In this document: piece after piece, positions 3-16,537 of the stretch
Layout: each line of letters begins with the position of its first letter
How positions within the stretch are numbered: position 1 is the first letter of the stretch
IMG/VR virus record: IMGVR_UViG_3300048815_000006
Span: 1 to 39,469 of that record
Length of the DNA stretch: 39,469 bases
Source: a virus
Direction: 5' to 3' (one strand)
Notes under the pieces: model-generated
The model's database searches: none
What the model saw: the letters and a program-made list of their open reading frames with translations, nothing else
What the model was told of the DNA's origin: nothing
Translations under genes and position numbers: made by a program

Positions 3-2372
3 ACTGCGGCCAGCCAGCATCTCCAGGACATTGAGGCCGGCACCGTTCGCGGCGATCTCGGTTTGGTCGCCAGTGGCGCGGCAGGCTTGACCGATGCCCG
101 ACTGAAGCAAGCGCAACTGCTGTACGGCACCATGTCGCCACAGATGGCCGATGCGGTGCGGGGGAAGGCTGCGGCTGAGGCAATCGAGACCCAAGTCAAG
201 ACGTTGATCCCGACCGATCCCGCAAGAGCATCGCGGATTCTCCAAGCCAATTCGGACAAACTGCCGGCAGCAGCTTATGAGGAACTGAGCCAGCGGACCA
301 AAGCCTACGCCGACGACATGACCCTGACGGGCGATGTGGGCGGCTACATGCGCGGCCAGCCGCCGCCGCGTGCATCTGGAGGCGCGGGGCCAGCGCCATC
401 GGCGAACACGATCCCCGAGCCGCAGCGCGCCGCGCTGTTGCAACAAGCCGTGGTCGGAACACCGATCCCGCCCGCAACGCTCGATGCTCTGGTCAAACAG
501 GAAAGTGGATGGGACGCGGGCCAGCGTGGTTCGGCCGGCGAGATCGGGTTAGCGCAGATCAAGCCGAGCACGGCGACGGCGCCCGGCGTCGGGATGGCCG
601 GCGTGGACCCTACGACACTCAATGATCCCGCTGCCAATCTGAGGTTTGGCGCGCAATATCTGTATGCCCGCGGCAAAGCGGCCGGACTGACGGATGCAGA
701 TTGGAAAGACCCTGCGAAAGTCGCTGTTGTGCTGAAGGAGTACAACGGCGGCGGCGATCCCGATTACGTGCAGCATGTGACGAGCCGTATGGCGCCCGGC
801 GGCGTGTTGCCTGCATCGTATTCCGGCGGTGCTGCACCAGAGATCGGAGCGACGCCGGTCGCCGCACCAGGCACCTCTCCACCAGTCGCGTCTGCGGGCG
901 TCGTCGCGCACAACCCGGCCGGCGTGGACATGCTGGCGCAGAAATACATCGGGGCGAGGGACGAGGCTGCGCGGCTCTACCCGGGCAACTCGGTCATGCA
1001 GGACCGTTTCGTCCAGCGCGTCCATCAGGATGTAAACGAACTGATGATGCTGCAAAACCGCGACGAAGCGGTCCGCGAGAAGGCCCGGAAGGACGCATCG
1101 GAGGCGGCCGGGCAACAGGTCTTGACCACGCTACACAAGAACCCGGGCCAGTTCGATCCGGCGCTGATCTGGAACCAGCCAGACAATGTGATGACGTGGG
1201 AAGAGAAGCAGCATCTGGCCGAGGTCGCCAACTATCAGTTGACGCAGGCCGGCATCGATCCGGTCCATCATGCGGCCGGTTACACCAAAGTGCTGGCCGG
1301 CATCACGGCAGACCCGAGCGCCCCGAACTACATCAATTCGATGCGCGATATCTACAGCCGAGCCGGGGAGGGTGGCGATCTCAACCGCCGCGACGCGGAT
1401 GAGTTGTCCCAGATATTCACCAGGGTCCACAAGGACCCGGATTACGCGACACTGAAGACGCGCGAGGCGTCGATGCTGAAAATAGCCAACCGCGCGCTCA
1501 TGTTCACCGACCCGGAAGTTCCCGACAAATTCCAGACCCCTGATCGCGTGGGCCAGGACATCTTCGACGGACAGTTTGTGCAGACCTATTTGCCGATGGT
1601 CGACAGGGCTGCGGCGACTGGCAAGCCGGACGAACTCGAAAAGGTTCTGAACAAGGATTTCGTGCTCAATCTGGCGCACAGCATGCGGTCGCAGGCCGAC
1701 ATCGACCGAGCCCGGATGGAAGCGACGGGGCAATCCGCCCCGGGCGACGTGGAGAAGCCGGGGACGCCGTTGCCTCCGGTGCCGACGATCCAAGACAAAG
1801 ACGGCAAGCCGGTAACGATCAATCCTGGGGGTTGGGGGACTGTGATGGTGCGCCCCCCAGTTGCAGAGAGCGGCCAACCCTACACGCACGCCGCATGGGC
1901 GACGTATCTCTCCCGGCTCGTGCAGAACCCGGACCCGAAGACGATCCAGTATTTCGACCAGCACTTCGCCGCGCAGGGTTACAGCGGAGCCGACATCGTG
2001 AAGGCCCTCACGACGCCCGCCGGGGGCGCTGCACTGCTGCCGGCGACCGACGAGTTCGGCGGCGGCGGTCCTGCTCCGGCCGCAGGGACGCCCGCAGCAG
2101 TGGCGCCGGCGACCACACACCAACCGACCGGACCCTACACGCTCGAATCCATCGGTGGCGGAGGTGCGTATCGTGGCCAGTTCAAAGTCCTCGACGCCGC
2201 CGGACATGATACCGGCTTCAAGGGCACGCACGATGAAGCACAGGCCGAACTGGCGCGGCTCAATGCGGTGCGGGCCGGCGGGTGGAACCTGCGCCTGCCT
2301 GACCTGGGCATCCACATGCACCACACGCCGGGCGTGATGAGCGGCCTGCCAACGGACCAGACCAAGCCCTGA
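3..2372 (+). CDS. Lytic transglycosylase virion (ejection) protein, 5' end cut by window
   Basis: The frame is open to the left edge, so the gene starts outside the window; the first in-frame start seen (TTG at 63) continues a coding stretch and is not a convincing start. Counting from that TTG, residues about 125-245 form a soluble-lytic-transglycosylase domain. The catalytic Glu is E147 in KQESGWD, followed by GEIGLAQIKPSTA, NLRFGAQYL and KEYNGG. The rest is long helical and Pro/Ala-rich sequence without a recognised domain. A transglycosylase embedded in a large protein just before a membrane-active giant protein suggests an internal virion protein that opens peptidoglycan during DNA entry, by analogy with T7 gp16. 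The stop overlaps the next start (TGATG), so translation is probably coupled. The domain is secure; the virion role is inference. Confidence 0.85.
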   Translation, partial: TAASQHLQDIEAGTVRGDLGLVASGAAGLTDARLKQAQLLYGTMSPQMADAVRGKAAAEAIETQVKTLIPTDPARASRILQANSDKLPAAAYEELSQRTKAYADDMTLTGDVGGYMRGQPPPRASGGAGPAPSANTIPEPQRAALLQQAVVGTPIPPATLDALVKQESGWDAGQRGSAGEIGLAQIKPSTATAPGVGMAGVDPTTLNDPAANLRFGAQYLYARGKAAGLTDADWKDPAKVAVVLKEYNGGGDPDYVQHVTSRMAPGGVLPASYSGGAAPEIGATPVAAPGTSPPVASAGVVAHNPAGVDMLAQKYIGARDEAARLYPGNSVMQDRFVQRVHQDVNELMMLQNRDEAVREKARKDASEAAGQQVLTTLHKNPGQFDPALIWNQPDNVMTWEEKQHLAEVANYQLTQAGIDPVHHAAGYTKVLAGITADPSAPNYINSMRDIYSRAGEGGDLNRRDADELSQIFTRVHKDPDYATLKTREASMLKIANRALMFTDPEVPDKFQTPDRVGQDIFDGQFVQTYLPMVDRAAATGKPDELEKVLNKDFVLNLAHSMRSQADIDRARMEATGQSAPGDVEKPGTPLPPVPTIQDKDGKPVTINPGGWGTVMVRPPVAESGQPYTHAAWATYLSRLVQNPDPKTIQYFDQHFAAQGYSGADIVKALTTPAGGAALLPATDEFGGGGPAPAAGTPAAVAPATTHQPTGPYTLESIGGGGAYRGQFKVLDAAGHDTGFKGTHDEAQAELARLNAVRAGGWNLRLPDLGIHMHHTPGVMSGLPTDQTKP

Positions 2373-5300
2373 TGGCTGACCCCGCTACTCTCGACGCGCC
2401 ACCGACCGGACGCTTGCCGGCGAGCGGAGACCCGTTTGCCGGGATCGACCCCTTCATGGCTGCGGCACCGGCTGCCGCGACCGCGCCTGACCCTGACGAT
2501 CCGTTCGCGGACGCGCCGCCGCTGGCGAAGGGCGAGACCGGCGCCCCTGGTGCCTTCATCTCCCACGCGGCCCGAGGCGTGCTGCCGATGGTCGGCGGGA
2601 TGGCTGCGGCTGGTGCTGGCGCTGAGATCGGCGCCGGAATTGGCGCTCTCACCGGACCATTTGCGCCCGTAGCGGCACCAGTCGGTGGCTTCATCGGTGG
2701 GTTGGCGGGGTTCTTTGCCGGCTCCGCCGCGACTGAGACCGCCCAGGATTGGGCGCTGAAGCAACTCCCGATGGCTGCCCAGGAGGCGGCCGGGCAATCC
2801 GAGCGCGCCCAGCGCGAGCAGGAGATCGAGCACCCCTACGCCTCGTTCATGGGCGGGATCGCCCCATACGCGATCACGATGTCGCCCGGCGGCTGGACCA
2901 AGGGCGCCGCATCGCTGCCTGAGAACGCGACGACGTTCCAGAAGATCATGGCGAACCCGTTGACGGCGAAAGCCTTCAGCGGCGCGATGATGGGCGGCAT
3001 GGAACTCGGCAACGAGTGGACCGAGGGCCAGCCGACCGATTGGGCCAAAGTCGGGATATCGACCGGGTTTGGGTTGATCTTTAGCCACCCCTACCAGCAC
3101 GGCGAGTACCTGACGAATCTTGGCGCCCAGCCTGTCGTCCGGCTGTTCTCGCGAGGCATGGAGGTTCCGCCGGCGGGAGTACTGAACCCCGAGGAGCCAA
3201 CCGTCGCCCAGGCTGGCGATGTCGGCGTGATCGGCCCCGGCATCACCGAACACACCTTTCGTGGCGGCGAGCAGCAGAGCGATGCGACCCGAGCCTCGGC
3301 ACAGAACGCCGCGGCGGATGAGCAAGCCGCGCTGGGACCGCTGCCGACGCCGGACCTGGACGCGATCGCGCGTCGGCTCGACCCCGACACATTCGCGCAG
3401 AACGATGAACTGCTGGCGCAACGGGACGCGCTGCGATCCTGGATCCAGACCGAAAGCAACCCGACCGACGACATGATCGCGCAGGCGACCGCGGCTCGGC
3501 AGGCGATCGACGATCAGTTGGCGGAGACGAAGAACCGGGCTGAACAGCGCCGGCTTCGTGTGCAGCAGCGCGCCGCGCAGGCGGACCTGGATGACCTGAC
3601 CAACCGCAGAGAAGCGTGGGAGAACGGCACGCACGTCGATACGCCGGACATCTCAATGGCCCGGCAGCATCTGTTGGATACCGAGCACGCGCTGTGGGAC
3701 TTGGCGCCGGACATCTCGGCGGCGCGGAGGCGGGCGGCGGATCATGTGGGGGAGGAGCCTGAACCGGCCGCGCAAGAGGTTGCGGCCGGTCACGAGCAGC
3801 CGGCGGCCGAGGTTCCGGAAAAAGGGAGGGTTATTTCGGAACCCGCCGCGCCGGCTGAGAAATCCCCCGACGCGCAACGCGCCTTCATCGCCCAGGACCG
3901 CGCGACGCAACTCATGGCCGCCGGCCTGTCCAAGGCCACGGCAGAGGCGTCCGCAGCCGTTGAGGCTCACTACTACGCGACCCTGGCGGCGCGGTTCAAC
4001 GGCGCCCTGGGGACGGCGGAAGACCTGTATCGAGCGCGAGCCGCGCGTGTCATCGGCCCGGGGCAGACCGCACCGGCCGAAGGTGCGCCGCCGGCGCCGA
4101 TTACCCGCACGGAACCCCTGCGTTCGGCTGCGATCCGGTCCATCGCGGACATCCAGGCGCAGGATGGTGTCGGCGCCAAGCGGGCCAAGGCGATCCAGGA
4201 GCAGGAGATACTGGCACGCGGGCGGGTGATTGAGCCGGGCACCCCGAGGGGCGAGCCGGTTGTGCCGGCCGTCCCTCAAGTTCCATCAAATCCATCAACC
4301 TCCATCAATCCCGCGCCAGTCGAGCGCGCCCCAGAACTCGCCGAAGCCGCGCAAGTCGCCCCGCCAGTGCCTGAACCCCGCCCGCGCCTCCGCAGCGCCG
4401 CCGACATCATGCGCGAGGACCGCGTTCCCGAGAGCCGCGTCAAGGCGGTCCAGGACGCTGAATTGGCGGCCTTGGCCGACTGGCAGGCCCGACACCCATC
4501 CGGGGAGCCTCGCCCGAAGCGCAACCGCGCCGCTGATCGGTTGGCCGAGACCGCCGGCATTCCGACCGCCGGGGTGCCCGAGCCTGCCGTCCTGACCGAG
4601 ATTGTGGACCGGTTGCCGGAAGAACGGGTTGTCGAGGAAGTCAACGCTGCTGCGGAAGCCGGCGAAATCGAGTATCGGGAGGCGGAGGCTGAGGCGCCCG
4701 AAGCGACCGAAACCCCCGACGCCTTCTACGACGCCGACCAGTCCCGCAGCCTGGAGGAATTGGAGAGTGAGCATCGACCGGCAGCGCAATCAGTTGCCAG
4801 CACCCCAGAGCCGGCGTCTCTTGCGGCGCTGATCCCAGAACCAGAGCGCAGGGAGAGTGCCGCAAAAGGGGAGGCGTTGGCAAAAGAAGGGGAGGCATTC
4901 CTCGCACGCGCAGCGGCAGTCGAACGCGAGAAGAACTATCGGGTCGGCGGTCTGACGCGAGAAATCCAGCATGACGCAAACCTACTTCGCGATCTGGCGG
5001 CGGAGCATGCTGCCGGCGATGACCGGCTACTCGAAAAAACACTAGACCGACTGTCACCGCTGCGCGTCGGGAAAACGGCGTACCAAGAAATCGGTATGCC
5101 CGAGGTGCGAGATTGGGAGAACAAGGCATACGAGTGGGCCTATGGCCTGGAAGAGAGGATCGAACGTGCTCGACCGGCGAACGAAGCTGCTGCACCTGAG
5201 CAACGCGAGGGCGGCGGCGGGGAACCAATCGTTGCCACAAGCGACGAGGGACAAGTACCAGAGGGCGGCGGACCAGTTGGGACTGTCGGTGGGACTGGAG

Positions 5301-8300
5301 AACGCGTTGCAGACGAAGGCGGAGAACGAGGCGATGTCGAGCACGCCGTCGCAGCCGCAGGGGTTGGGCCAGACTACCGGCCAGAGCCTGCTGCCGAGCA
5401 GCCCCCCGAGCCAGCCGGAGCAGAGCAAGGAACTGGCGTCCCCCAGCAACCTGCTGGCGTAAGGCGCACAGACGCCCGCGGCAACCCGATCTTCGCCAAG
5501 GGTGAGCGGGTTGTCATCCCGGATGGCGAGCATCTGGCCGGGCGGCATGGGACGGTCGAGGAAGCCAACGGGCTGGTGTTCCAGTCTCTGTATGGCGGCC
5601 AGAAGACGGAGCCGACCTACACTTATCAGGTCCGCACCGATGCCGGCGAACTGGTCCATTCCAATGCGCCGGTAGCCGAGACAGGCGAGCGCCCCGAGGT
5701 CGTGCCCGACCCGATCTACCAGGGTCACGCACGCAACCCGGCGGAACTGCTGCGGCACATCGGCCTGGATGAACGTGCAGCCACCGGATATGTGACGCGC
5801 GGCGCGCGGGCGCGTACCCCGAAGATGAAGGCCGAATGGGCACGCGAGGCAGCCAACTCACGGGACAAGGCTGCGGCGCAGCGGGCCGTGCTGGACGCAT
5901 GGGCGACGGAACATCCCGAGGAAGCCGCCAAGGTCCTGCCGGCGCGGGCCGCCGTTCCCGAAACCCCGAGCGCCGCATCGACTACTCCGGTCGGCGGCAT
6001 GTCCATCGTCGAGACCCGCCACACCAAGCACGGTTACCCGCTGTGGTCGGTGACGCTGAGCGGGGAACGGCTGCCGTTGGATCGATTCAACGAACTGCGG
6101 GGCGCGGCGCGCGAGGGCGGCGGCGACTGGTCATCGTGGCGCGGGCGCGGCGCTGTGCCGGGGTTCCAGTTTCGGACGCGCGAGGCGGCGGAGGCGTTTC
6201 GGGAACGGTTCGGTGGGGAGGGGCCGGCGGCAGAGGCCCCCGCACCGGCTACATCGGCGCGGCCTGAGTGGACCGAGGCCGGCCAGAACGACCGCGGCGA
6301 GACGATCTATACCAACGCGGAAGGCGCTCACTCCGTTATCGAGAACGGCGTCCGGGTCATTGAAGGCGTCGCGCTACGGCCGGTGCGCGATGAGCGGACC
6401 GGGCGGATTTCCTACGTGCCGCAGATCAAGGCGCCCGGGTCCAAGGAACTCCGGTATGAGGTGGTTCCCGAGGCGCCGACCGTTGCTGAGGTGACAGAGC
6501 AAGCCGGCGGAAGCGAATCGCTGCCTCCGCAGCCAGCACCGGCTCCGGAAACTCCGAAGGTCCGCACCATCTCCGACGCGCTCGCCCCCGCCGAGGGGAA
6601 GGGGCCGGCGCCGGTTACGAGTGCGCCAGAGGAAGCCCCTCGCGCATCCAAGGACGTGCAGATCGAGCACGCCGAGCAGATGCCGTTCGAGGACGCGCAC
6701 GACCTTGCAACCGCGCGCCGGATGCTCAACGCCTATCGTGGCGACAAAGGCGTCGAAGCGGCGGTTGCGCGCATTGAGGCGGGCGAGCCGTGGCAGGACG
6801 TGTTCCGCACCGCCAACACGCCGTTCACCGCGTTTGAGACACGCTCAATTGCCGAGGTGGCGCGCGCGGATGGCCGGATCAGGCCACGCGAGGAAGCGCC
6901 AACGCCAGCGCCCCCAGCAGAGGGTTCGGCATACGGCGCCAACAACAAACTCGTCACCCAAGCCGACCGCGAGGCGATCCGCGCCCGGCTCCGCGCAAAA
7001 TCTGGTCAACTCCGCACCGGCATTGACCCGGAAATGATGCTGGATGGCGCCCGTCTCGCCGTCTTCCACATCGAGGCTGGCGCGCGGGCCTTCGCCGACT
7101 ACGCCCGCGAGATAGTCGCCGACATCGGCGTCGAGTTCCGACCCTACCTGCGGTCCTGGTATGAGGCAGCCCGGCATTGGCCGGGCGTCGATGCTCGCGG
7201 CATGACCGCGGCGGGAGAGATTGAGGAAGCCCCCCATGTCGCCGAACGCACCCCGGAAACCCCCGAGGACGTGGCCGACATCGACCAACTGCTTGACACC
7301 CATCGCAACGACCCCATCATCAATGAGATCGCTCGCCTGACCGGGGCCGGCTGGACTCCCGAAGAGATCGAAAACGGTCCGGCTGGCGACCGCTTCTCGC
7401 TCGATGAGATCGAGAGCATCGTTCGTGCCCAGGAACGCCGGGGCGAGATCCCGGAACTCGATGAGGCGGAAGGCCAAGGCGACCTTTCGTTCGAGGAGGA
7501 TGAGGGTGGAGTTCAAGGGGCCGTACCTGTTCGCGATGAGGGAGCAGGACCCGAAGATGTTCATGGAGCTCCGTCGCTCGGGGAAACTGGACGCGCACCT
7601 TCAGGAGAAATCGGTGGAGGCGCACGAACTGCTGAACCAGCTGCTGGCGAAGAAGCCCAAGGACAGGTTCGGGGAGCACAGCCAGGCGGACGTGCGGGAG
7701 GCCGAGGAACTGGTGCGGGCGCAACTGATCGAGTTCCCAACACCGGAGAGGGATCAGCGGCCGGAGCCACCAGACGATTTGCCGACCGTCCGGATGCGGG
7801 CGTCGAAGGATCGAACTTCAGCATCGAGCCAGGCGACCTAGCCGAAGGCCGTGGCCGCACCACCAAGGCGCGGGACAACATCGCGGCCATCGAACTCGCG
7901 AAGCGGCTGATCGACGAAGGCCGGCCAGCCACCAAGGCTGAGCAAGCCATCCTTGTGAAATACACCGGCTGGGGCGGCATCAAGAACGCCTTCCCGGACG
8001 CGCGTGGCGAGTTCCGTCCAGAGATGGAGGACATCGGCCGCCGCCTTCGTGCAGCACTCACCGACGAAGAATACCGCACCGCGCAACAATCGGTGCAGTA
8101 CGCCCACTACACGGCCGAGCATGTCGTCCGCTCAATGTGGGATGCGGTGCGGCAGATGGGCTTTGACGGCGGCCTGGTGTTCGAGCCCGGCCTTGGGGTC
8201 GGGCATTTCCTTGGCCTGATGCCTGCCGATCTTGCCGAAAAGAGCGAATACCAGGGCATCGAGCGCGATCACCTGTCGGCGCAAATCGCGAAGCTACTGT

Positions 8301-11300
8301 ATCCCGAGTCCGGCATCCGCGAGGCCGACTACATCCGAACGCCGGTCCCGGAGGGATCGTTTGATCTGGTGATTGGCAATCCGCCGTTCGGCGACATTAT
8401 CATCAACGGTGATCCGAAGTACGCCGCCCGCGGCTTCATGCTGCACGATTATTTCTTTGCCAAATCGCTCGATAGCGTGCGGCCCGGCGGCCTCCTGGCC
8501 TTCATCACGTCGGCCGGCACGATGAACAAGCTGGACGCCTCGGCCCGGCTATATCTCGCCGACCGCGCCGATCTGGTTGGCGGCATCCGGCTACCGAACA
8601 CGACGTTCCGCCGCAACGCCGGGACTGAGGTGACGACCGACATCCTGTTTTTTCGCAAGCGCGCCCCGGGCGAGGAGGGGATTGAGCCGGCCTGGACCGA
8701 GACCGTCCAGCGCACATTGCCGAGCACAAAGGGCGGCGAGCAAGAAACGAATGTCAGCCGCTATTTCTCCGACCATCCCGAGAACGTGCTCGGCACCGAA
8801 GCGTGGGGCGAAATGCAGGCCGCTGGCCGCTACGAGGTCCAGCAGGTGCCCGGCACTGATCTTGAGGCTGATCTCCGCGCCGCTGTGGATCGCCTGCCGC
8901 GCGATGTGATGACCGCCGCCCCAACGCCGGAAGAACGTGCCCGGCTTGATTTTGCCTCCGGGCAGCGGAAGGACGGCAGCTTCTACGTCGGCGCCGATGG
9001 CAAGCTGATGCAGTACCGGGATGGCGCAGGCCGAGAAGTTCCGGCCTACGGCAAAGGTGGTGGCGGCCTGACCGGAGCGGCCCGCGAGCGCGTCGAGCAC
9101 CTGATCCCGATGCGGGACGCGCTGCGGGACGTGTTTGCCGCGGACCTGGCGCGAGATGATGCCGCCGGCGCAGAGGCGCGGGCGCGGCTCAACGAGCACT
9201 ACGATCGCTTCGTCCAGAAATTCGGCCCTATCAACAAGGCGGAGTTCACCTATCGGCGGCCATCGATCATCCAGCAGGAAACCGCCCGGCTGGAAGCGCG
9301 CGAGGAAGCGCGCATGTCGGACCAGCGGTTCGATGACGGCGAGTTCGATCCGAGTTCCATGCTCGCGAACAAGGCGAAGGTCAGCGAGATCGCCAGGGCG
9401 CGGCAACAGGCCCGCGAGGCAGCAAAGGCCGCAGGACGCGAGTTCGACGAAGGCACATTCGACCCGTCCGCAATGCCGGATGAGGTGTCGGAGAAACGTC
9501 CGAACATCAAGCCGTTCATGTCGGACCCAGAGAGTTACCGGCTGCGATCGATCGAGAATTACAACGATGCCACCGGGGAGGCATCCAAGAAGGCGATCTT
9601 CCGCGAAAACATCCTGAAGCACGAGGAAGAGCCGGAACTGAAATCGGCCAATGACGGCGTGCTCTGGTCGATGAACAAGCTGGGCCGGTTCGACGTTGAC
9701 GCCATCGCCAAGAAGATGAGGCGCGAGCCCGCCGATATCGTCGCTGAACTGGGCGATGCGGTCTACAAGGTGCCTGGCACCGAAGACACTTACCAGACCA
9801 AGGACGAGTATCTGTCGGGTGATATCGTGTCCAAGCTGGAGACGGCGCGGGCCGAAGCTGAAACAGACCCTGACGTGCGGCGCAACATTCCCGCCCTGGA
9901 GGCCGCGCTACCGCCTCCGCTGCCGCCCTCGGAAATCTCGATGGTCCTCGGGATGCCGTGGATACCGACCGACACCCTGCGCGAATTCGTCCGCGATCAC
10001 ATGGAGATGGGCGAGCCGCATATCAGCCACAGCGCCATCACTGGGACATGGTTCGTCAATGGCGGCCGCGCCGCACAGGAAGCCGGCGTCCAGCGATGGA
10101 GCACACCGGACCGCAACGCCTTCGAGTTGCTGTCTGACGCGATGAACCGAACGCCGCCCCGCATCTACGCCGAAGAGCGCGGCCCGCGGGGTGAGAAAAT
10201 CAGGGTGTTCGATCCCGTCGCCACACAGGCGGCGCAGGACGTGACCGACTCCATGAAGGCAGCGTTCACCGATTGGGTTGCCGCCGATCCAGACCGCGCA
10301 AACAGGCTGGCAGACCTCTACAACGATAAGCTGAACAGGACCGTGCTACGTCAGTTTGACGGCAGCTACATGACCACGCCTGGTGTTGCTGCGACATGGA
10401 GTTGGCGCCCACACCAGACGCGGGTGGTGTCCCGCATTGTTCAGACCGGCAACACCTATATGGCGCACGCTGTAGGGGCCGGAAAGACGAGCGCGATGAT
10501 CGGCGCAGGGATGGAGATGCGCCGCCTCGGACTGGTGCGGAAACCGCTCTACGTTGTGCCCAACCACATGCTCGGGCAATTCACCAAAGAGTTCTACGAG
10601 CAGTATCCAACCGCACGAATTGCTGTCGCCGACGAAGATCGGTTCCACACCGACCGCCGCAAGCAATTCGTGGCCAATGTTGCGCAGGACGATCTCGACG
10701 CGATCATCATGACGCATTCGAGTTTCGGCAAGATCGGGATCAGCGACGAGTTCCAGCGCCATTTGATCGATGAGCAGATCGAGATGCTGGACAAGGCGCT
10801 TGAAGAACTGGACGAGCAGGCTGATCGCATCGCTCGGGGCCGGATCGAAAACCAGAAGGAAAAACTTGAGCAGAGGCTGTCTGGCCGCAGCGACGGGCAG
10901 GATCAGACGCTCACGTTCGAGCAGCTTGGCGCCGACTTTTTGTTTGTCGATGAGGCCCACCAGTTCCGCAAATTAAGCTTCGGGACCAAGCAGGGGAACT
11001 TGAAGGGCATCGCGCCCGAAGGGTCCAATATGGCTTGGGACCTCTATACGAAGGTCCGCTATCTCGACAGCCAGAAGCCCGGACGCTCCGCTGTGTTCGC
11101 CTCTGGGACGCCGGTCACCAACACGATGGGCGAACTCTACAGCCTGAGTCGGTTCATGCAGCCCGAGGCCCTGGCCGAGCGCGGATTGACGCACTTCGAT
11201 TCGTGGGCGCAGACTTTCGGCGATACTAAGACAGGTCTGGAAGAAACCGCCGCCGGCACCTATCAGCCGGTCACGCGGTTCGGCCAGTTCGTCAACCTTC

Positions 11301-14300
11301 CTGAGTTGTACAAGATGGTCGGCGAGGTGATGGATATCGTCACCCCGAGCCAACTTGAGCAGTACGTGACGCGGCCAAAGTTGAAGGGCGGCGAGCGCGA
11401 CTTTCACCTCGCCCCGCGCACCGAAATCCTGGATCGCTACCAAGCCGACCTCGCGGCCCGGATGCAGGCCATCAAGGACCGACGCGGGCCGCCGCAGAAG
11501 GGTGACGACATCCTATTGTCGGTCATCAACGACGGGCGGCACGCAGCCATCGACCCACGTTTCGTTGAAGAAACTGACAACGATCCGCGGTCCAAGCTAA
11601 ATGTGATGGTGCAGAACGTCGCGCGCATCTACCACGAAACCGCCGACAAACAGTTCTACGATCCGGCCAGCAACTATGAGCGGGAGAGTTTCCAAGGTCC
11701 GGCGACGCAGATGGTTTTCGCCAATCTGGGCGTGAACGGTCGCGGCCCGATGGGCTTCTCGTCATACCAGTGGATCAAGGAAGCGTTACGCCGAGAGGGC
11801 GTGGCGCCCGAACACATTGCGTTCATCGGCGACTATCCCGGCACGCTTCAGCGCCAAGCCTTGTTCAACGACATGAACGAGGGGAAGGTCCGCATCCTGG
11901 TCGGCTCGACGCAGAAGATGGGCACCGGGGTCAACGCACAGCGGCGCCTCGTCGCGCTGCATAATCAGGACCCGCTCTGGTTCCCAGCCGACGATGAGCA
12001 GCGCGTCGGGCGCATCTTGCGCCAGGGCAACCACAATCCCGAGATCGAGGTCCACGACTACTCGACCAAGGGCACTTACGATTCCGCCATGTGGAAGATG
12101 ATGGGCAACAAGGCCCGGTTCATCGAGCAGTTCTTCCGGGGCGACCCGAGCCTGCGGAACATGGAGGATGTCGGCGAGGCCAGCATGTACGAGCAGGCGT
12201 CGGCGATGGCGACGACCGATGAGCGGATTATCACGCTCACGCAACTCAAACAGGATTTGGACAAGGCCCGGCGACGGGAGTCGGCACACAACAGCGGCCA
12301 GTATGCGCTGCGCTCGCAACTGAAAAACAAAGAGTGGTGGGCCGACTTCGAGGCCAGGTCCGCGGCGTCCATCCAGGAAGATATTGAGAAGCGCGAGGAC
12401 ACCCGAGGCGATAACTTCGCGATGCACGTCGGCGGCGAGAAATTCGACAAACGTAAAGAAGCGGAGGCCGCGCTTAGCGAATTGACCGCAGACCGCGCCG
12501 AGGGCCTAGGCAAAGGCGGTGAGACGCCAGTCGGTCGCATCGGCGGCTTCCCGATCATCATGTCACGGAACACCAAGGGCGCGCTGTCCTTCAACCTCCG
12601 CCTGTCCGGGGGCAACGCCCGTGAGTTAAATTTCAACTGGTACGGCAACAAGTCGGTGCATGACGCCTTTGTGGAGGCCCAGCGCAGGGAGAACGGAGAG
12701 GAGGCTGCTACGAAGGCGGCGGCTTCCCCAATGGGTGCCAAGGGCCTGATCCAATCCGCGGAGCACACACTGCGCCAGTTCGAGGACCGGCTCGCCGCCT
12801 CCGAAGCATCGCGCGCCAGGGCGCTTCGCGAGGCCGACAACATCCGGCCTCTGCTTGGTCAACCTTTCACCGGCGGCGACGAAATCCTGCGTCTATCCAA
12901 TGCCGTACGGGACCTGGAAGGCCAGTTACGGCGCGAGGCGGAGGCCAAGGCCAATCCCGATGCGCCCTCCCCTGAACCGACGCCGGGTATTCCAGCCGAA
13001 CCCACCTCCGCGCTGCCCCGCTGGGAAGGCCCGACACCGGAGGCTGTCTCCGGTTTCATGGCTGGTGGTGGAGATCTGTTCCAACGTCTCCGCCAGTCCA
13101 TCCAAGGCAAAATCCGCATATCCCCCGGCGAAACACGCTCCATCATCACCCTGGCCCGCAGCGCCGACGCCAGCACCTTCATGCACGAGACCGCGCACGA
13201 CTGGCTGAAGCAACTCCTGATGGACGCGGCGCACAATCTCGCCCCCCAGGCCCTCCGAGACGATGCCGCCACGGTGCGTCGCTGGCTGAAGCGTCCCGAC
13301 GCATGGACAGGATTTAAGCGCGATGGTACACCCGATGTAGCGCCCCAAGAGCGTTTCGCCCGTGCGTTCGAGCAATATCTACGCGAGGGTCATGCTCCAA
13401 GCCGGGCGCTGGATGGTGTCTTTGCGAAGTTCAAGTCGTGGCTGACCACGATCTACCGGACGTTGCGCGGACTTGGCGCTCCAATCTCGGACGACATCCG
13501 CGGTGTGTTCGACCGGATGCTGGCGATCGAGCCGGAGCGGATCACCCACGGCGAGGTGCCGGAACGCGGGCCGAGCATCGCGGACATCCACGAGGCCGAC
13601 GCAGCGGAGACGCCGCCGCGCGAGGCCGAGGTAGTCGCGGATCGGATCGCCGCCGAACGTGCCAGGAACCAGCCCCCGCCAGAGGTCGCGCATGAAATCG
13701 CCGCAGTCCAGCCAATCGAGCCAGCCGGCGCCACTCAACCCGGAGCAGAAGCTGCAACTGGCCCAACAGGACGCGGAGAAGTGGCGCCAGGCGGCGGCCA
13801 GCCCGAATCTGTCACCGATGGCAGCGGCGTGGGCGCTGGGACAGGCGCGGTCGGCGCAGGCGGAGGTGAAACTGCGGCAGAAGGGACTGGCGTATCAGGC
13901 GGAACAGGACAATCCAGTGACGCAGGGGGACGACGCGGCACTGAACGTGCTGCTGGGTCTCCCGCTGAACAACTCGCCCCAAGGCCAGCCGAATCCCTCG
14001 ACGACACCGGCGATACAACCGCCGTCGACCTCGCCGGGAATATCCGCGTCGAAAACCTCACCGACGTAGAGAGCATCGCCCAGGCGATTCACGATTCGGC
14101 GGATCGCAACGACGAGTTCCGTCAGGTCCGGGGCGGAATGACCAAGGGCCAGATGCTCGATCTGGCCGAGGCAATGGGGTTAGACCCCAACAAGATCGAC
14201 GAGGCCGGGCTTGCCAGACTGCTCGGCGGCACATCCGAACTTGGGCCGCGCATTTTGGCTGCACGTCGGCTCGTGGTGCAATCGGCCGAGATCGTGTCCA

Positions 14301-16537
14301 ACATCATGAAGCGGGCCGCGCAATCCTGGACCGATGCTGACGGCGCCGAACTCGGGTTGGCGATTGCCCGGCATGACATGATCCAATCGGCGCTTGCTGG
14401 CGTCACTGCCGAATGGGGTCGGGCCGGTAACGCGTTCCACAATCTGCTGGAGGGATGGGGGAAGGCGCAGGACCTGAACCAGTTGCTGCGCGACAATACG
14501 GGGCGCGATCTCTATCAGCTCCAGGTGATCGCCAAGATGGGGTCGCGACTGGACACCCCCGGCAAGGTCTCGAAATACCTCCGGGACGCGAAGAGTCGGT
14601 CCTTTGGCGGCATGATCCTCGAGTACTGGATCAACGGGCTGATCTCAGGCATCGCGACGCATGCCACCTACGTGGTCGGCAACACCATCCTGGCGGCGGA
14701 GAAGGCCGGTCCCGAGACTGCGGTCGCGGCGGCGATCGGCGCCTTCCGGGCCCGGATGGGACGGGTCGGAACCCGGGTCAGGCTCGGGGAGGTGGGCGCG
14801 CAGTTCGGCGCGGCCTTCCGTGAGGCCCCTGCGGCGGTTCAGGCCGGCATCGAGGCGTTGCGCAGCGGCGCCACCACCCAGCTTCCAGGCGAGGCCGCAA
14901 GGCCACTGGTGCCGTTCCAGGGCGATACCTCCCTCACTACAAGCCGGGGCATGACGAACCAGCATGTCACGTGGCGGGAGGTGGGTGCAGACGCCTACGG
15001 GTTGGTGCAGGGGATGCGTGACGGCATCGTGGCGGCCGGCGAATTGGTGCGGGCCGGTGGAGTAGAGGGCGCTCCGACGTGGGGCTGGCAGTCGTCACCG
15101 CTCGGGCAGATACCGGGCTTGGCCTACAAGGGTGTGGAAGTCGCACCCATCGGGCACATCCTGCGCTTGCCGAGTCGGAACGTGGCCGCGATCCATTCGA
15201 CGTTCCGCGCCATGAACTATTCGATGGAGATCAACGCGCTCGCCTTCCGTCAGGCGGCCGATGAAGGATTGGCCGGGGAAGCCTTTGCGGCCAGGGTTTC
15301 CGAACTCCGCCAGAACCCACCCGAGGAAATGATGGACGCGGCGCGGGGTAAAGCAACCGACCTGACCCTGATGGGTCAGGGCGGCAAGCTGACCGAGGCC
15401 CTGAGCCGACTGTTCAACACCACGATCAACCTGCCGGTCCTCGGCGAAACCGCGGTCCTGAAATTCGTCGACCCTTTCGTCCACATCGCCGGCAACATCA
15501 TGAACCAGTCGCTGCTACAGCGGACCCCGGTCGGGCTGCTGTCGCGCGAGATCAGGGCGGACCTGGCCGGCAAGAACGGCAACGTCGCCCAGGATACCGC
15601 GGCGGCGAAGATGCTGGTCGGAACCGCGATTGCGGTCACGTTCGGCGGTCTCGCTGCTCAGGGCTTGGCATCCGGCTCCGGTCCCGCCGATCCAAACAAA
15701 GCCGCGATGTGGCGTCTTGCAGGAAACCAACCGCATAGCGTTCGCATCGGGGATATGTGGTACGCGGTGAACCGGCTCGGCCCGATGGGGCTGCTGCTCA
15801 GTGTCGCGGCCGACATGTACGATGTCGCGCACATGATGGGCACCGAAGACGCCGGGACGATTGGGTCCGCGTTGATGCACGCCTTCACGCAGAACATCCT
15901 GGATGAATCCTTCATGCGCGGGCCGTCAGACTTGATCCGCGCCACCACGGAGTCGGATCGGTACGGGGCGGCCTACATCCGCAACCTGCTGCCGTCGTTC
16001 CTACCGTTCTCCGTCCTGCAAGCCCAGATGGCGCGGGCCACGGACCCTTATTCCAGGCAGGCCCGCACCATCATGGACGCGATCCGGGCGCGGGTGCCAG
16101 GGTTGTCCGAGAGCCTGTTTCCACGCCGGGATATCTGGGGGGAGCCGATGCCGAGTGGCGATGCCCTGATAGCCCCTGGCGTGACGGCCATCTATGCGCG
16201 GCAGATGAGCACTGACCCGGTGAACCTCGCCATGCTGGCGCTCGGCGTGTCGCCGGCCCCGGTCGAGCGGACGATCCGCAACGTGAAGCTGACCGATCAG
16301 GAATATGACGACTACGCAAGGCTCGCCGGCCGGGCTGCGAAGATCAGGCTGGATGCCATTGTGAAATCCCCGCTTTGGGCAACGATGCCGAACGCGAGTC
16401 GCTATGAGGTGATCGAGGAGACGATCAAACAGAACCGTGAGGCGGCTCGTGGCATGATGATGATGAAGTACCCGCAGATTCCGCGCGATGCGGCCAAGGC
16501 GCAGATTGCCCGCAAGACGGGCGAAACGGTGCACTGA
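2372..16537 (+). CDS. Giant polyvalent protein: methyltransferase, SF2 helicase, metallopeptidase, ejection-like ends
   Basis: A single uninterrupted 4721-codon frame. Residues 60-140 are a Gly/Ala-rich hydrophobic segment likely to meet membrane. About 320-460 is charged and helical. About 1210-1290 and 1518-1612 are modules (HTK..., GANNK...IEAGAR) that recur in DarB-like giants. Residues 1817-2090 are an adenine-N6 methyltransferase (SAM loop FEPGLGVGH near 1937, NPPF at 2003-2006). About 2670-3260 is an SF2 helicase (Walker A GAGKT 2702-2706, DEAH 2860-2863, QRVGR from 3210). About 3590-3720 is a metallopeptidase with HETAH at 3605-3609. The C-terminus (3900-4721) has hydrophobic stretches near 4080-4110, 4413-4434 and 4468-4490. 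P1 DarB, a packaged methyltransferase-helicase that protects incoming DNA, is the closest functional model. Virion packaging and ejection are inferred. Three linkers (about 932-1031, 1712-1823, 3774-3900) are low-complexity and overprinted by small genes. Confidence 0.9.
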   Translation: MADPATLDAPPTGRLPASGDPFAGIDPFMAAAPAAATAPDPDDPFADAPPLAKGETGAPGAFISHAARGVLPMVGGMAAAGAGAEIGAGIGALTGPFAPVAAPVGGFIGGLAGFFAGSAATETAQDWALKQLPMAAQEAAGQSERAQREQEIEHPYASFMGGIAPYAITMSPGGWTKGAASLPENATTFQKIMANPLTAKAFSGAMMGGMELGNEWTEGQPTDWAKVGISTGFGLIFSHPYQHGEYLTNLGAQPVVRLFSRGMEVPPAGVLNPEEPTVAQAGDVGVIGPGITEHTFRGGEQQSDATRASAQNAAADEQAALGPLPTPDLDAIARRLDPDTFAQNDELLAQRDALRSWIQTESNPTDDMIAQATAARQAIDDQLAETKNRAEQRRLRVQQRAAQADLDDLTNRREAWENGTHVDTPDISMARQHLLDTEHALWDLAPDISAARRRAADHVGEEPEPAAQEVAAGHEQPAAEVPEKGRVISEPAAPAEKSPDAQRAFIAQDRATQLMAAGLSKATAEASAAVEAHYYATLAARFNGALGTAEDLYRARAARVIGPGQTAPAEGAPPAPITRTEPLRSAAIRSIADIQAQDGVGAKRAKAIQEQEILARGRVIEPGTPRGEPVVPAVPQVPSNPSTSINPAPVERAPELAEAAQVAPPVPEPRPRLRSAADIMREDRVPESRVKAVQDAELAALADWQARHPSGEPRPKRNRAADRLAETAGIPTAGVPEPAVLTEIVDRLPEERVVEEVNAAAEAGEIEYREAEAEAPEATETPDAFYDADQSRSLEELESEHRPAAQSVASTPEPASLAALIPEPERRESAAKGEALAKEGEAFLARAAAVEREKNYRVGGLTREIQHDANLLRDLAAEHAAGDDRLLEKTLDRLSPLRVGKTAYQEIGMPEVRDWENKAYEWAYGLEERIERARPANEAAAPEQREGGGGEPIVATSDEGQVPEGGGPVGTVGGTGERVADEGGERGDVEHAVAAAGVGPDYRPEPAAEQPPEPAGAEQGTGVPQQPAGVRRTDARGNPIFAKGERVVIPDGEHLAGRHGTVEEANGLVFQSLYGGQKTEPTYTYQVRTDAGELVHSNAPVAETGERPEVVPDPIYQGHARNPAELLRHIGLDERAATGYVTRGARARTPKMKAEWAREAANSRDKAAAQRAVLDAWATEHPEEAAKVLPARAAVPETPSAASTTPVGGMSIVETRHTKHGYPLWSVTLSGERLPLDRFNELRGAAREGGGDWSSWRGRGAVPGFQFRTREAAEAFRERFGGEGPAAEAPAPATSARPEWTEAGQNDRGETIYTNAEGAHSVIENGVRVIEGVALRPVRDERTGRISYVPQIKAPGSKELRYEVVPEAPTVAEVTEQAGGSESLPPQPAPAPETPKVRTISDALAPAEGKGPAPVTSAPEEAPRASKDVQIEHAEQMPFEDAHDLATARRMLNAYRGDKGVEAAVARIEAGEPWQDVFRTANTPFTAFETRSIAEVARADGRIRPREEAPTPAPPAEGSAYGANNKLVTQADREAIRARLRAKSGQLRTGIDPEMMLDGARLAVFHIEAGARAFADYAREIVADIGVEFRPYLRSWYEAARHWPGVDARGMTAAGEIEEAPHVAERTPETPEDVADIDQLLDTHRNDPIINEIARLTGAGWTPEEIENGPAGDRFSLDEIESIVRAQERRGEIPELDEAEGQGDLSFEEDEGGVQGAVPVRDEGAGPEDVHGAPSLGETGRAPSGEIGGGARTAEPAAGEEAQGQVRGAQPGGRAGGRGTGAGATDRVPNTGEGSAAGATRRFADRPDAGVEGSNFSIEPGDLAEGRGRTTKARDNIAAIELAKRLIDEGRPATKAEQAILVKYTGWGGIKNAFPDARGEFRPEMEDIGRRLRAALTDEEYRTAQQSVQYAHYTAEHVVRSMWDAVRQMGFDGGLVFEPGLGVGHFLGLMPADLAEKSEYQGIERDHLSAQIAKLLYPESGIREADYIRTPVPEGSFDLVIGNPPFGDIIINGDPKYAARGFMLHDYFFAKSLDSVRPGGLLAFITSAGTMNKLDASARLYLADRADLVGGIRLPNTTFRRNAGTEVTTDILFFRKRAPGEEGIEPAWTETVQRTLPSTKGGEQETNVSRYFSDHPENVLGTEAWGEMQAAGRYEVQQVPGTDLEADLRAAVDRLPRDVMTAAPTPEERARLDFASGQRKDGSFYVGADGKLMQYRDGAGREVPAYGKGGGGLTGAARERVEHLIPMRDALRDVFAADLARDDAAGAEARARLNEHYDRFVQKFGPINKAEFTYRRPSIIQQETARLEAREEARMSDQRFDDGEFDPSSMLANKAKVSEIARARQQAREAAKAAGREFDEGTFDPSAMPDEVSEKRPNIKPFMSDPESYRLRSIENYNDATGEASKKAIFRENILKHEEEPELKSANDGVLWSMNKLGRFDVDAIAKKMRREPADIVAELGDAVYKVPGTEDTYQTKDEYLSGDIVSKLETARAEAETDPDVRRNIPALEAALPPPLPPSEISMVLGMPWIPTDTLREFVRDHMEMGEPHISHSAITGTWFVNGGRAAQEAGVQRWSTPDRNAFELLSDAMNRTPPRIYAEERGPRGEKIRVFDPVATQAAQDVTDSMKAAFTDWVAADPDRANRLADLYNDKLNRTVLRQFDGSYMTTPGVAATWSWRPHQTRVVSRIVQTGNTYMAHAVGAGKTSAMIGAGMEMRRLGLVRKPLYVVPNHMLGQFTKEFYEQYPTARIAVADEDRFHTDRRKQFVANVAQDDLDAIIMTHSSFGKIGISDEFQRHLIDEQIEMLDKALEELDEQADRIARGRIENQKEKLEQRLSGRSDGQDQTLTFEQLGADFLFVDEAHQFRKLSFGTKQGNLKGIAPEGSNMAWDLYTKVRYLDSQKPGRSAVFASGTPVTNTMGELYSLSRFMQPEALAERGLTHFDSWAQTFGDTKTGLEETAAGTYQPVTRFGQFVNLPELYKMVGEVMDIVTPSQLEQYVTRPKLKGGERDFHLAPRTEILDRYQADLAARMQAIKDRRGPPQKGDDILLSVINDGRHAAIDPRFVEETDNDPRSKLNVMVQNVARIYHETADKQFYDPASNYERESFQGPATQMVFANLGVNGRGPMGFSSYQWIKEALRREGVAPEHIAFIGDYPGTLQRQALFNDMNEGKVRILVGSTQKMGTGVNAQRRLVALHNQDPLWFPADDEQRVGRILRQGNHNPEIEVHDYSTKGTYDSAMWKMMGNKARFIEQFFRGDPSLRNMEDVGEASMYEQASAMATTDERIITLTQLKQDLDKARRRESAHNSGQYALRSQLKNKEWWADFEARSAASIQEDIEKREDTRGDNFAMHVGGEKFDKRKEAEAALSELTADRAEGLGKGGETPVGRIGGFPIIMSRNTKGALSFNLRLSGGNARELNFNWYGNKSVHDAFVEAQRRENGEEAATKAAASPMGAKGLIQSAEHTLRQFEDRLAASEASRARALREADNIRPLLGQPFTGGDEILRLSNAVRDLEGQLRREAEAKANPDAPSPEPTPGIPAEPTSALPRWEGPTPEAVSGFMAGGGDLFQRLRQSIQGKIRISPGETRSIITLARSADASTFMHETAHDWLKQLLMDAAHNLAPQALRDDAATVRRWLKRPDAWTGFKRDGTPDVAPQERFARAFEQYLREGHAPSRALDGVFAKFKSWLTTIYRTLRGLGAPISDDIRGVFDRMLAIEPERITHGEVPERGPSIADIHEADAAETPPREAEVVADRIAAERARNQPPPEVAHEIAAVQPIEPAGATQPGAEAATGPTGRGEVAPGGGQPESVTDGSGVGAGTGAVGAGGGETAAEGTGVSGGTGQSSDAGGRRGTERAAGSPAEQLAPRPAESLDDTGDTTAVDLAGNIRVENLTDVESIAQAIHDSADRNDEFRQVRGGMTKGQMLDLAEAMGLDPNKIDEAGLARLLGGTSELGPRILAARRLVVQSAEIVSNIMKRAAQSWTDADGAELGLAIARHDMIQSALAGVTAEWGRAGNAFHNLLEGWGKAQDLNQLLRDNTGRDLYQLQVIAKMGSRLDTPGKVSKYLRDAKSRSFGGMILEYWINGLISGIATHATYVVGNTILAAEKAGPETAVAAAIGAFRARMGRVGTRVRLGEVGAQFGAAFREAPAAVQAGIEALRSGATTQLPGEAARPLVPFQGDTSLTTSRGMTNQHVTWREVGADAYGLVQGMRDGIVAAGELVRAGGVEGAPTWGWQSSPLGQIPGLAYKGVEVAPIGHILRLPSRNVAAIHSTFRAMNYSMEINALAFRQAADEGLAGEAFAARVSELRQNPPEEMMDAARGKATDLTLMGQGGKLTEALSRLFNTTINLPVLGETAVLKFVDPFVHIAGNIMNQSLLQRTPVGLLSREIRADLAGKNGNVAQDTAAAKMLVGTAIAVTFGGLAAQGLASGSGPADPNKAAMWRLAGNQPHSVRIGDMWYAVNRLGPMGLLLSVAADMYDVAHMMGTEDAGTIGSALMHAFTQNILDESFMRGPSDLIRATTESDRYGAAYIRNLLPSFLPFSVLQAQMARATDPYSRQARTIMDAIRARVPGLSESLFPRRDIWGEPMPSGDALIAPGVTAIYARQMSTDPVNLAMLALGVSPAPVERTIRNVKLTDQEYDDYARLAGRAAKIRLDAIVKSPLWATMPNASRYEVIEETIKQNREAARGMMMMKYPQIPRDAAKAQIARKTGETVH
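5166..5462 (+). CDS. Overprinted small gene A inside the giant gene (+1 frame), 98 aa
   Basis: Start GTG at 5166 is preceded by GAGAGG with a 7-base spacer; an ATG at 5142 in the same frame lacks such a site. A hand count gives G or C at about 90 of 98 third positions in this frame. The overlapping giant frame here reads as Gly/Ala/Glu/Pro-rich filler. The product begins with a helical segment (about residues 2-50, LDRRTKLLHLSNARAAAGN...) and ends in a Gln/Ser/Pro-rich tail. The TAA stop at 5460-5462 lies where the giant frame again becomes ordinary domain sequence. No family is recognised. The reading frame is well supported by codon bias and ribosome site; expression is untested. Confidence 0.7.
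   Translation: MLDRRTKLLHLSNARAAAGNQSLPQATRDKYQRAADQLGLSVGLENALQTKAENEAMSSTPSQPQGLGQTTGQSLLPSSPPSQPEQSKELASPSNLLA
7506..7841 (+). CDS. Overprinted small gene B inside the giant gene (+1 frame), 111 aa
   Basis: GTG at 7506 follows AGGAGG (7494-7499) with a 6-base spacer, an excellent ribosome site; an in-frame ATG at 7500 touches the site and is less likely. About 84% of third positions are G/C by hand count, against about 36% in the giant frame over the same bases. The product is a normal-looking helical protein: EFKGPYLFAMREQDP, then LRRSGKLDAHLQEKSVEAHE, then REAEELVRAQLIEF and an acidic Pro-rich tail. The segment with SGKL...L followed by an EAEE-type helix loosely recalls small TnpV-like proteins, but this is only an impression. 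TAG at 7839-7841 lies exactly where the methyltransferase domain begins in the giant frame. Confidence 0.8.
   Translation: MEFKGPYLFAMREQDPKMFMELRRSGKLDAHLQEKSVEAHELLNQLLAKKPKDRFGEHSQADVREAEELVRAQLIEFPTPERDQRPEPPDDLPTVRMRASKDRTSASSQAT
13692..14069 (+). CDS. Overprinted small gene C inside the giant gene (+1 frame), 125 aa
   Basis: ATG at 13692 has AGAGG 6 bases upstream. A GTG at 13659 is in frame but has no clear ribosome site. About 79% of third positions are G/C by hand count. The encoded protein has a Ser/Gln-rich start, a helical centre (NPEQKLQLAQQDAEKWRQ, then MAAAWALGQARSAQAEVKLR) and a Pro/Ser/Thr-rich tail. The giant frame over the same bases is a Gly/Ala/Thr repeat-like linker. 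The TAG stop at 14067-14069 immediately precedes the start of the C-terminal ejection-like part of the giant protein. Its layout (short helical region plus disordered Pro/Ser/Gln tail) resembles overprinted gene A. Function unknown. Confidence 0.72.
   Translation: MKSPQSSQSSQPAPLNPEQKLQLAQQDAEKWRQAAASPNLSPMAAAWALGQARSAQAEVKLRQKGLAYQAEQDNPVTQGDDAALNVLLGLPLNNSPQGQPNPSTTPAIQPPSTSPGISASKTSPT

Follow-up and report, generated by a model that had tools for sequence, protein, structure and literature searches.

Results

The giant gene and the ORF nested within it

The DNA analyzed here, a viral stretch of 39,469 nucleotides (positions 1–39,469 of the IMG/VR record IMGVR_UViG_3300048815_000006, hereafter called the window), carries on its plus strand a giant gene (2372–16537) for a polyvalent protein of 4721 aa. 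The protein is assigned as DarB-like by its ORF, by Pfam and by similarity to annotated DarB-like proteins from Bcep22-like and other podophages (about 35–46% identity). Pfam finds in one polypeptide, in this order, the domains Eco57I (aa 1992–2059), N6_Mtase (aa 1913–2098), ResIII (aa 2677–2867) and Helicase_C (aa 3160–3219), with the N6 DNA methyltransferase domain at 8108–8665 and the helicase part at 10400–12028 (both plus strand). It shares this composition, a methyltransferase followed by a helicase in a single giant, with the DarB-like/SNF2 polyvalent proteins such as P1 DarB and those of Bcep22-like phages (PMC5512222), and the DarB-like giant of phage JC1 (gp69) is a virion protein (PMC9144972). 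Directly 5' of the giant gene, and ending where the latter starts, lies an ORF with a lytic transglycosylase (SLT) domain (63–2372, plus strand); a transglycosylase is annotated within the same chain in some Bcep22-like DarB proteins.

Inside the giant gene, in its +1 frame, an ORF of 111 codons runs on the plus strand from a GTG at position 7506 to a TAG stop (7839–7841; the whole ORF 7506–7841), and a Shine-Dalgarno (SD) sequence AGGAGG (7494–7499) stands six nucleotides ahead of the GTG. The initial annotation had drawn attention to these signals, which are plainly seen in the sequence, and to a third-position GC content (GC3) of about 84% in the nested frame and about 36% in the giant frame. 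Our measurements are close to both figures: GC3 of the nested ORF is 0.84 (GC at codon positions 1/2/3: 0.67/0.40/0.86, i.e. a normal coding pattern), while in the giant frame GC3 is 0.40 across this stretch (0.33 in the best 91 codons), compared with 0.79 further downstream in the giant. A normal-looking, helical and charged product had also been noted, and AlphaFold2 indeed predicts four helices (residues 4–14, 16–25, 28–48 and 60–74), with pLDDT >90 over about residues 1–70 and a disordered tail. The giant frame reads these bases (7505–7840, plus strand) as a linker, so classified from its translation, a pN/pS above 1 and the avoidance of stops (see below); it is rich in Gly, Ala, Pro, Glu and Arg and poorly conserved in sequence, yet stop-free. 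As had been remarked, the nested gene stops just before the methyltransferase part: giant-frame homology picks up again at about 7841, and N6_Mtase starts at residue 1913 (nt ~8108). The openness of the nested ORF is by itself unsurprising, as the +1 frame stays open in ~82% of synonymous shuffles that hold the giant protein fixed, but its conservation, codon bias, start site and SD sequence exceed chance.

Conservation of the nested ORF and of its start site

A tblastn search of phage records with the nested protein of the window gave no match, and the wider family was reached through the position inside the giant and through profiles. No solved structure resembling the nested product was found in the PDB, either by sequence or by fold, and neither Pfam, PHROG nor PADLOC matched a nuclease domain in the nested frame.

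In four independent lineages, whose methyltransferase regions share 60–68% identity with that of the window, the nested protein is present at 52–59% amino acid identity, in the same place and always in the +1 frame of a giant that is itself open throughout; three further lineages have an ORF in the same place and the same relative frame. The +1-frame ORF is also found at this place in all Bcep22-like giants examined (BcepIL02, DC1, BcepMigl, JC1 and metagenomic relatives) and in phages of Erwinia (PEp14, Pavtok, Stean), Klebsiella (LASTA, SopranoGao), Pseudomonas (Itty13, USP_18), Microcystis (Mwe-JY07), Agrobacterium (Atu_ph08), Ochrobactrum (POI1126), Vibrio (VvAW1), Sinorhizobium (PBC5) and Pseudoalteromonas (Y7). 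With a PEp14-type nested protein as the query, so that loci were chosen by the small protein irrespective of whether the giant frame is open, 67 IMG/VR loci were retrieved. In each of them the nested ORF is covered by an open -1 frame up to the limits of the contig, and in 65 this frame forms a continuous giant; the two exceptions are a rearranged remnant (L066) and PBC5, where the N-terminal half lies in the nested frame. P1 darB possesses neither the N-terminal half nor the nested gene, no nested gene was seen in the gut contig L151, and no free-standing phage-type relatives of the nested gene were found on plasmids. In the GenBank phage records inspected, the nested gene is nowhere annotated separately, probably because gene-finding programs discard ORFs lying inside longer ones.

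Two further +1-frame ORFs at the equivalent place ahead of the methyltransferase, one in the Bacteroides phage BKO1-TP3 (L156, 4585–4917) and one in L022 (4651–4995), show no recognizable similarity to TnpV, the family discussed below. In the record of Itty13 (L046, NC_070969) three long antisense ORFs are annotated opposite the DarB-like giant; they are probably a misannotation of the latter.

The 94 nested genes collected from phages start with ATG (87) or GTG (7), and the start Met is invariant among the homologues. Each of the 94 starts is preceded by an SD match of 4 nt or more, versus 25% of 7280 control ATGs in the +1 frame, and in PEp14, Pavtok, LASTA, SopranoGao and Stean a nested-frame stop is located two codons upstream of the ATG. 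Judged by these sequence features, the nested gene appears to have its own translation start.

Relationship to the TnpV family

The nested protein of the window matches the Pfam family TnpV (PF14198) with 16.5 bits (E-value 0.0085), below the gathering cut-off of 27 bits. Scores are somewhat higher for the nested proteins of PEp14 (20.7 bits) and L018 (20.9 bits), and weak matches are found also in the close group (4 of 5 members, best E-value 1.4e-3), in LASTA and, over nearly the whole profile, in a Bcep22-type relative. Profile-profile comparison connected the window group with TnpV at 93–95% probability (E-values about 4e-7 to 4e-8, over 64–68 columns), while 40 column-shuffled controls reached at most 2.1%; the window group was also connected with the PEp14 group (92.7%). 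The Bcep22-type group shows 71% to the window group and a weak 9–47% to TnpV, and because this profile link is weaker, its homology rests partly on the identical position and frame. By profile comparison, then, the nested protein of the window is a remote relative of TnpV. The two have in common a length of ~110 aa and the core P..y..L...G.L...L......A..........AEE.V...LI; the window protein differs in its score below the Pfam cut-off, in the lack of the N-terminal TnpV segment and in being encoded within a phage giant and not on a transposon. TnpV is known from free-standing genes on transposons and ICEs of Firmicutes (Tn4451, Tn6104–6106) and from elements whose insertion targets are snf2 genes (PMC3158075, PMC9815147), whereas the window and most of the relatives collected here are phage records. 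An excisionase role has been postulated for TnpV (PMC3158075); it would fit poorly with those of the phages that carry no integrase.

In Clostridia, TnpV genes occur in both free-standing and nested forms. Starting from TnpV, the copies nested in ORFs of 2178, 2481 and 2905 codons turned out to lie in methyltransferase-helicase giants. Starting from the giants, we found 13 of them in 59 Clostridia genomes, of which 12 have enough upstream sequence to be testable (the 13th is on a truncated contig), and all 12 harbor a bona fide TnpV (E-values 8e-13 to 5e-51) in the +1 frame. These nested genes have SD sites and are situated ~1–4 kb upstream of the methyltransferase, i.e. farther than in phages. 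A dedicated partnership of TnpV with the giant is not required, because free-standing TnpV genes exist without such a giant within 10 kb.

Selection in both reading frames

Conservation of an alternate frame can be spurious where the giant itself is conserved, as exemplified by the +2 frame at 10396–10773; hence we used frame-specific pN/pS and not identity alone. The analysis comprised three phage groups with the 94 nested genes and a Clostridia group, with the methyltransferase region as the control. The pN/pS values in the nested and giant frames are 0.64/1.17, 0.79/1.09 and 0.72/1.31 (medians) in the phage groups, with the nested frame lower in 2070/2089, 79/101 and 27/27 pairs, respectively, and 0.55/1.33 in the Clostridia TnpV group, with the nested frame lower in 69/69 pairs. 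In the control region it is the giant frame that has the low values (0.37–0.46) and its +1 frame exceeds 1.1. For the five close lineages taken together, a dN/dS-type ratio is 0.4–0.7 in the nested frame and 1.2–2.0 in the giant frame. GC3 is higher in the nested than in the giant frame in all 94 genes.

The giant frame bears a different mark of selection. A stop can arise in it only from a nested-frame codon that ends in T and is followed by AA, AG or GA, and not one such codon stands at the 1531 sites eligible for it (72 non-redundant genes), versus ~184 expected from T-usage in other contexts. In free-standing TnpV genes, which do not bear the burden of a second frame, 75 of 320 codons before AA, AG or GA end in T. 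The locus thus shows selection in both frames of a same-strand nested gene, seen in the low pN/pS of the nested gene and in the avoidance of stops by the giant. Taken with the conservation of the start and SD sites, these results suggest that both proteins are made.

The initial annotation had proposed comparing frame-specific codon bias and dN/dS across homologous giants, and the outcome favors the nested frame; the situation it had named as contrary, with stops in the +1 frame and a conserved giant frame, was not encountered in the 94 phage homologues. Its view of the small gene as the primary coding frame is supported by the lower pN/pS of that gene, but to say that the giant frame merely passes through here understates the case, since selection keeps that frame open (0 stops versus ~184 expected).

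Discussion

Alternative explanations

We estimate at about 0.88 the probability that the locus has a dual-coding architecture and that the nested gene is kin to TnpV. The alternative that fares best, although we regard it as unlikely, is a selfish insertion, i.e. a mobile or homing-type gene that entered the giant in a frame-neutral manner, like the ShiLan domain, an out-of-frame HNH endonuclease in a mycobacteriophage DNA methylase (PMC11855218). The presence of TnpV on transposons and on elements inserting into snf2 (PMC3158075, PMC9815147) agrees with such a scenario, and so does the similar hidden-frame geometry: in both systems a small out-of-frame gene with a GTG start is housed in a phage methylase gene whose own frame is open. 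ShiLan, however, is a sporadic homing element without a ribosome-binding site, while the TnpV-like gene has an SD site, no nuclease domain and an almost constant presence across the giants examined, in two phyla. The avoidance of stops implies a long co-residence of the nested gene and the giant and therefore also argues against selfish insertion, which could still be the remote origin of the arrangement.

Classical overprinting, in which the small gene would have arisen de novo inside an older giant frame, is very unlikely. Viruses often contain overlapping genes that arose de novo (PMC8227390), and the small size of the nested product and its position in a linker would suit such an origin; however, this product has free-standing TnpV homologues in another phylum, which disfavors a de novo origin, and over these bases it is the nested frame that has the normal codon pattern and the giant frame whose sequence is less conserved.

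The chances are slimmer still that the small domain is translated by a programmed ribosomal frameshift near the nested 5' end, giving a shorter giant that ends in a TnpV-like domain. A product of this shape is encoded in PBC5 (L054/L057), where a one-base frame change, either real or a sequencing frameshift, splits the giant, and the N-terminal half (2185 aa) shares the frame of the nested TnpV-like domain, which forms its end. PHROG 938 appears to derive from this PBC5 product, and the best structural match in BFVD is a 1093-aa piece, probably the PBC5-type product. Against a frameshift speak the invariant start Met, the SD matches at 94/94 starts, the existence of free-standing TnpV genes and the nested-frame stops two codons before the ATG in five phages, which leave almost no room for a shift. 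The 'endolysin' match to PHROG 938 was considered as a clue to function and rejected, as it was traced to the PBC5 N-terminal half ending in the nested frame.

Finally, a chance ORF in GC-rich DNA or a product of sequencing frameshifts, for which the easily open +1 frame might speak, is ruled out by conservation over dozens of independent genomes together with codon bias, pN/pS and the SD sites.

Relation to known arrangements and further candidates

In many phages the spanin genes Rz and Rz1 form an embedded pair, with a small gene lying wholly within the other in a different frame and a single mRNA serving for the translation of both. The embedded Rz/Rz1 arrangement occurs also in JC1 (PMC9144972). 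The proteins considered here are unrelated to spanins, the host is a polyvalent protein of 2000–5000 aa, and it is the inner gene that is the constrained one. Each component was known before: the polyvalent giants (PMC5512222), the TnpV family, and genes hidden out of frame inside phage methylase genes (PMC11855218). We found no description of an overlapping gene inside a DarB-like giant in our searches of PMC5512222 and PMC9144972, and no earlier account of the nested gene or of its tie to the giants in the openly readable literature searched. Same-strand overlaps of more than 100 codons with selection in both frames have rarely been documented in bacteria and dsDNA phages. The overlap described here is conserved among phages that infect Proteobacteria or a cyanobacterium, and also among Clostridia mobile elements.

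The giant of the window contains two more +1-frame ORFs on the plus strand over which its own GC3 is low. The first (5142–5462) is likely to be another nested gene; it has a relative in a +1-frame ORF of L036 (6192–6470; 35% identity over 83 aa, E-value 6e-14 in a pairwise test). The second (13692–14069; MKSPQSSQSSQPAPLNPEQ...) has a coding-like codon bias and is a possible third nested gene; no relative of it was found. Further +1-frame segments with coding-like codon usage are located in different linkers of other giants (L116, 4072–4374; L017, 1750–1935), suggesting that nested genes in the linkers of DarB-like giants may be a recurring theme.

Origin and possible function

On the comparative evidence above, the locus appears to be a deeply conserved case of dual coding that spans phages and bacterial mobile elements of two phyla. 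According to the dual-coding model, translation of the nested gene would be initiated internally on the mRNA of the giant, independently and from its own SD site, while the giant would be translated normally through the same bases as a disordered, fast-evolving linker of Gly, Ala and charged residues, kept free of stops because the ribosome must pass through it. Most likely, it is this linker and not the small gene that is the younger frame, because the family of the small protein has free-standing members (TnpV). We infer that a separate N-terminal polyvalent part, a TnpV-like gene and a methyltransferase-helicase may have been joined into one giant ORF by the opening of the -1 frame of the older small gene, which would be easy, since a stop requires a T-ending codon before AA, AG or GA. 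The ancestral split gene order was not found among the relatives examined.

As to function, the nesting inside an anti-restriction giant whose JC1 counterpart gp69 is a virion protein (PMC9144972) hints at a small four-helix accessory protein that might aid the DNA-entry/anti-restriction module, either as a partner of the giant or as a separate counter-defence factor; we offer this role tentatively. Equally speculative is a broader proposal, that the TnpV family as a whole could be dedicated partners of the DarB/SNF2 polyvalent methyltransferase-helicases, locked to them by dual coding since before the divergence of phages and ICEs.

The findings connect TnpV, so far an orphan family, with an anti-restriction module, suggest that published virion proteomics has been searched without the nested protein, and point to a route by which giant multi-domain proteins may grow, namely by opening the -1 frame of a neighboring gene. 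If the dedicated partnership is true, the label 'transposon-encoded/excision protein' would be misleading, with TnpV acting instead in counter-defence or DNA entry, and -1-frame translation through genes lying in between would be a general source of the disordered linkers of the giants.
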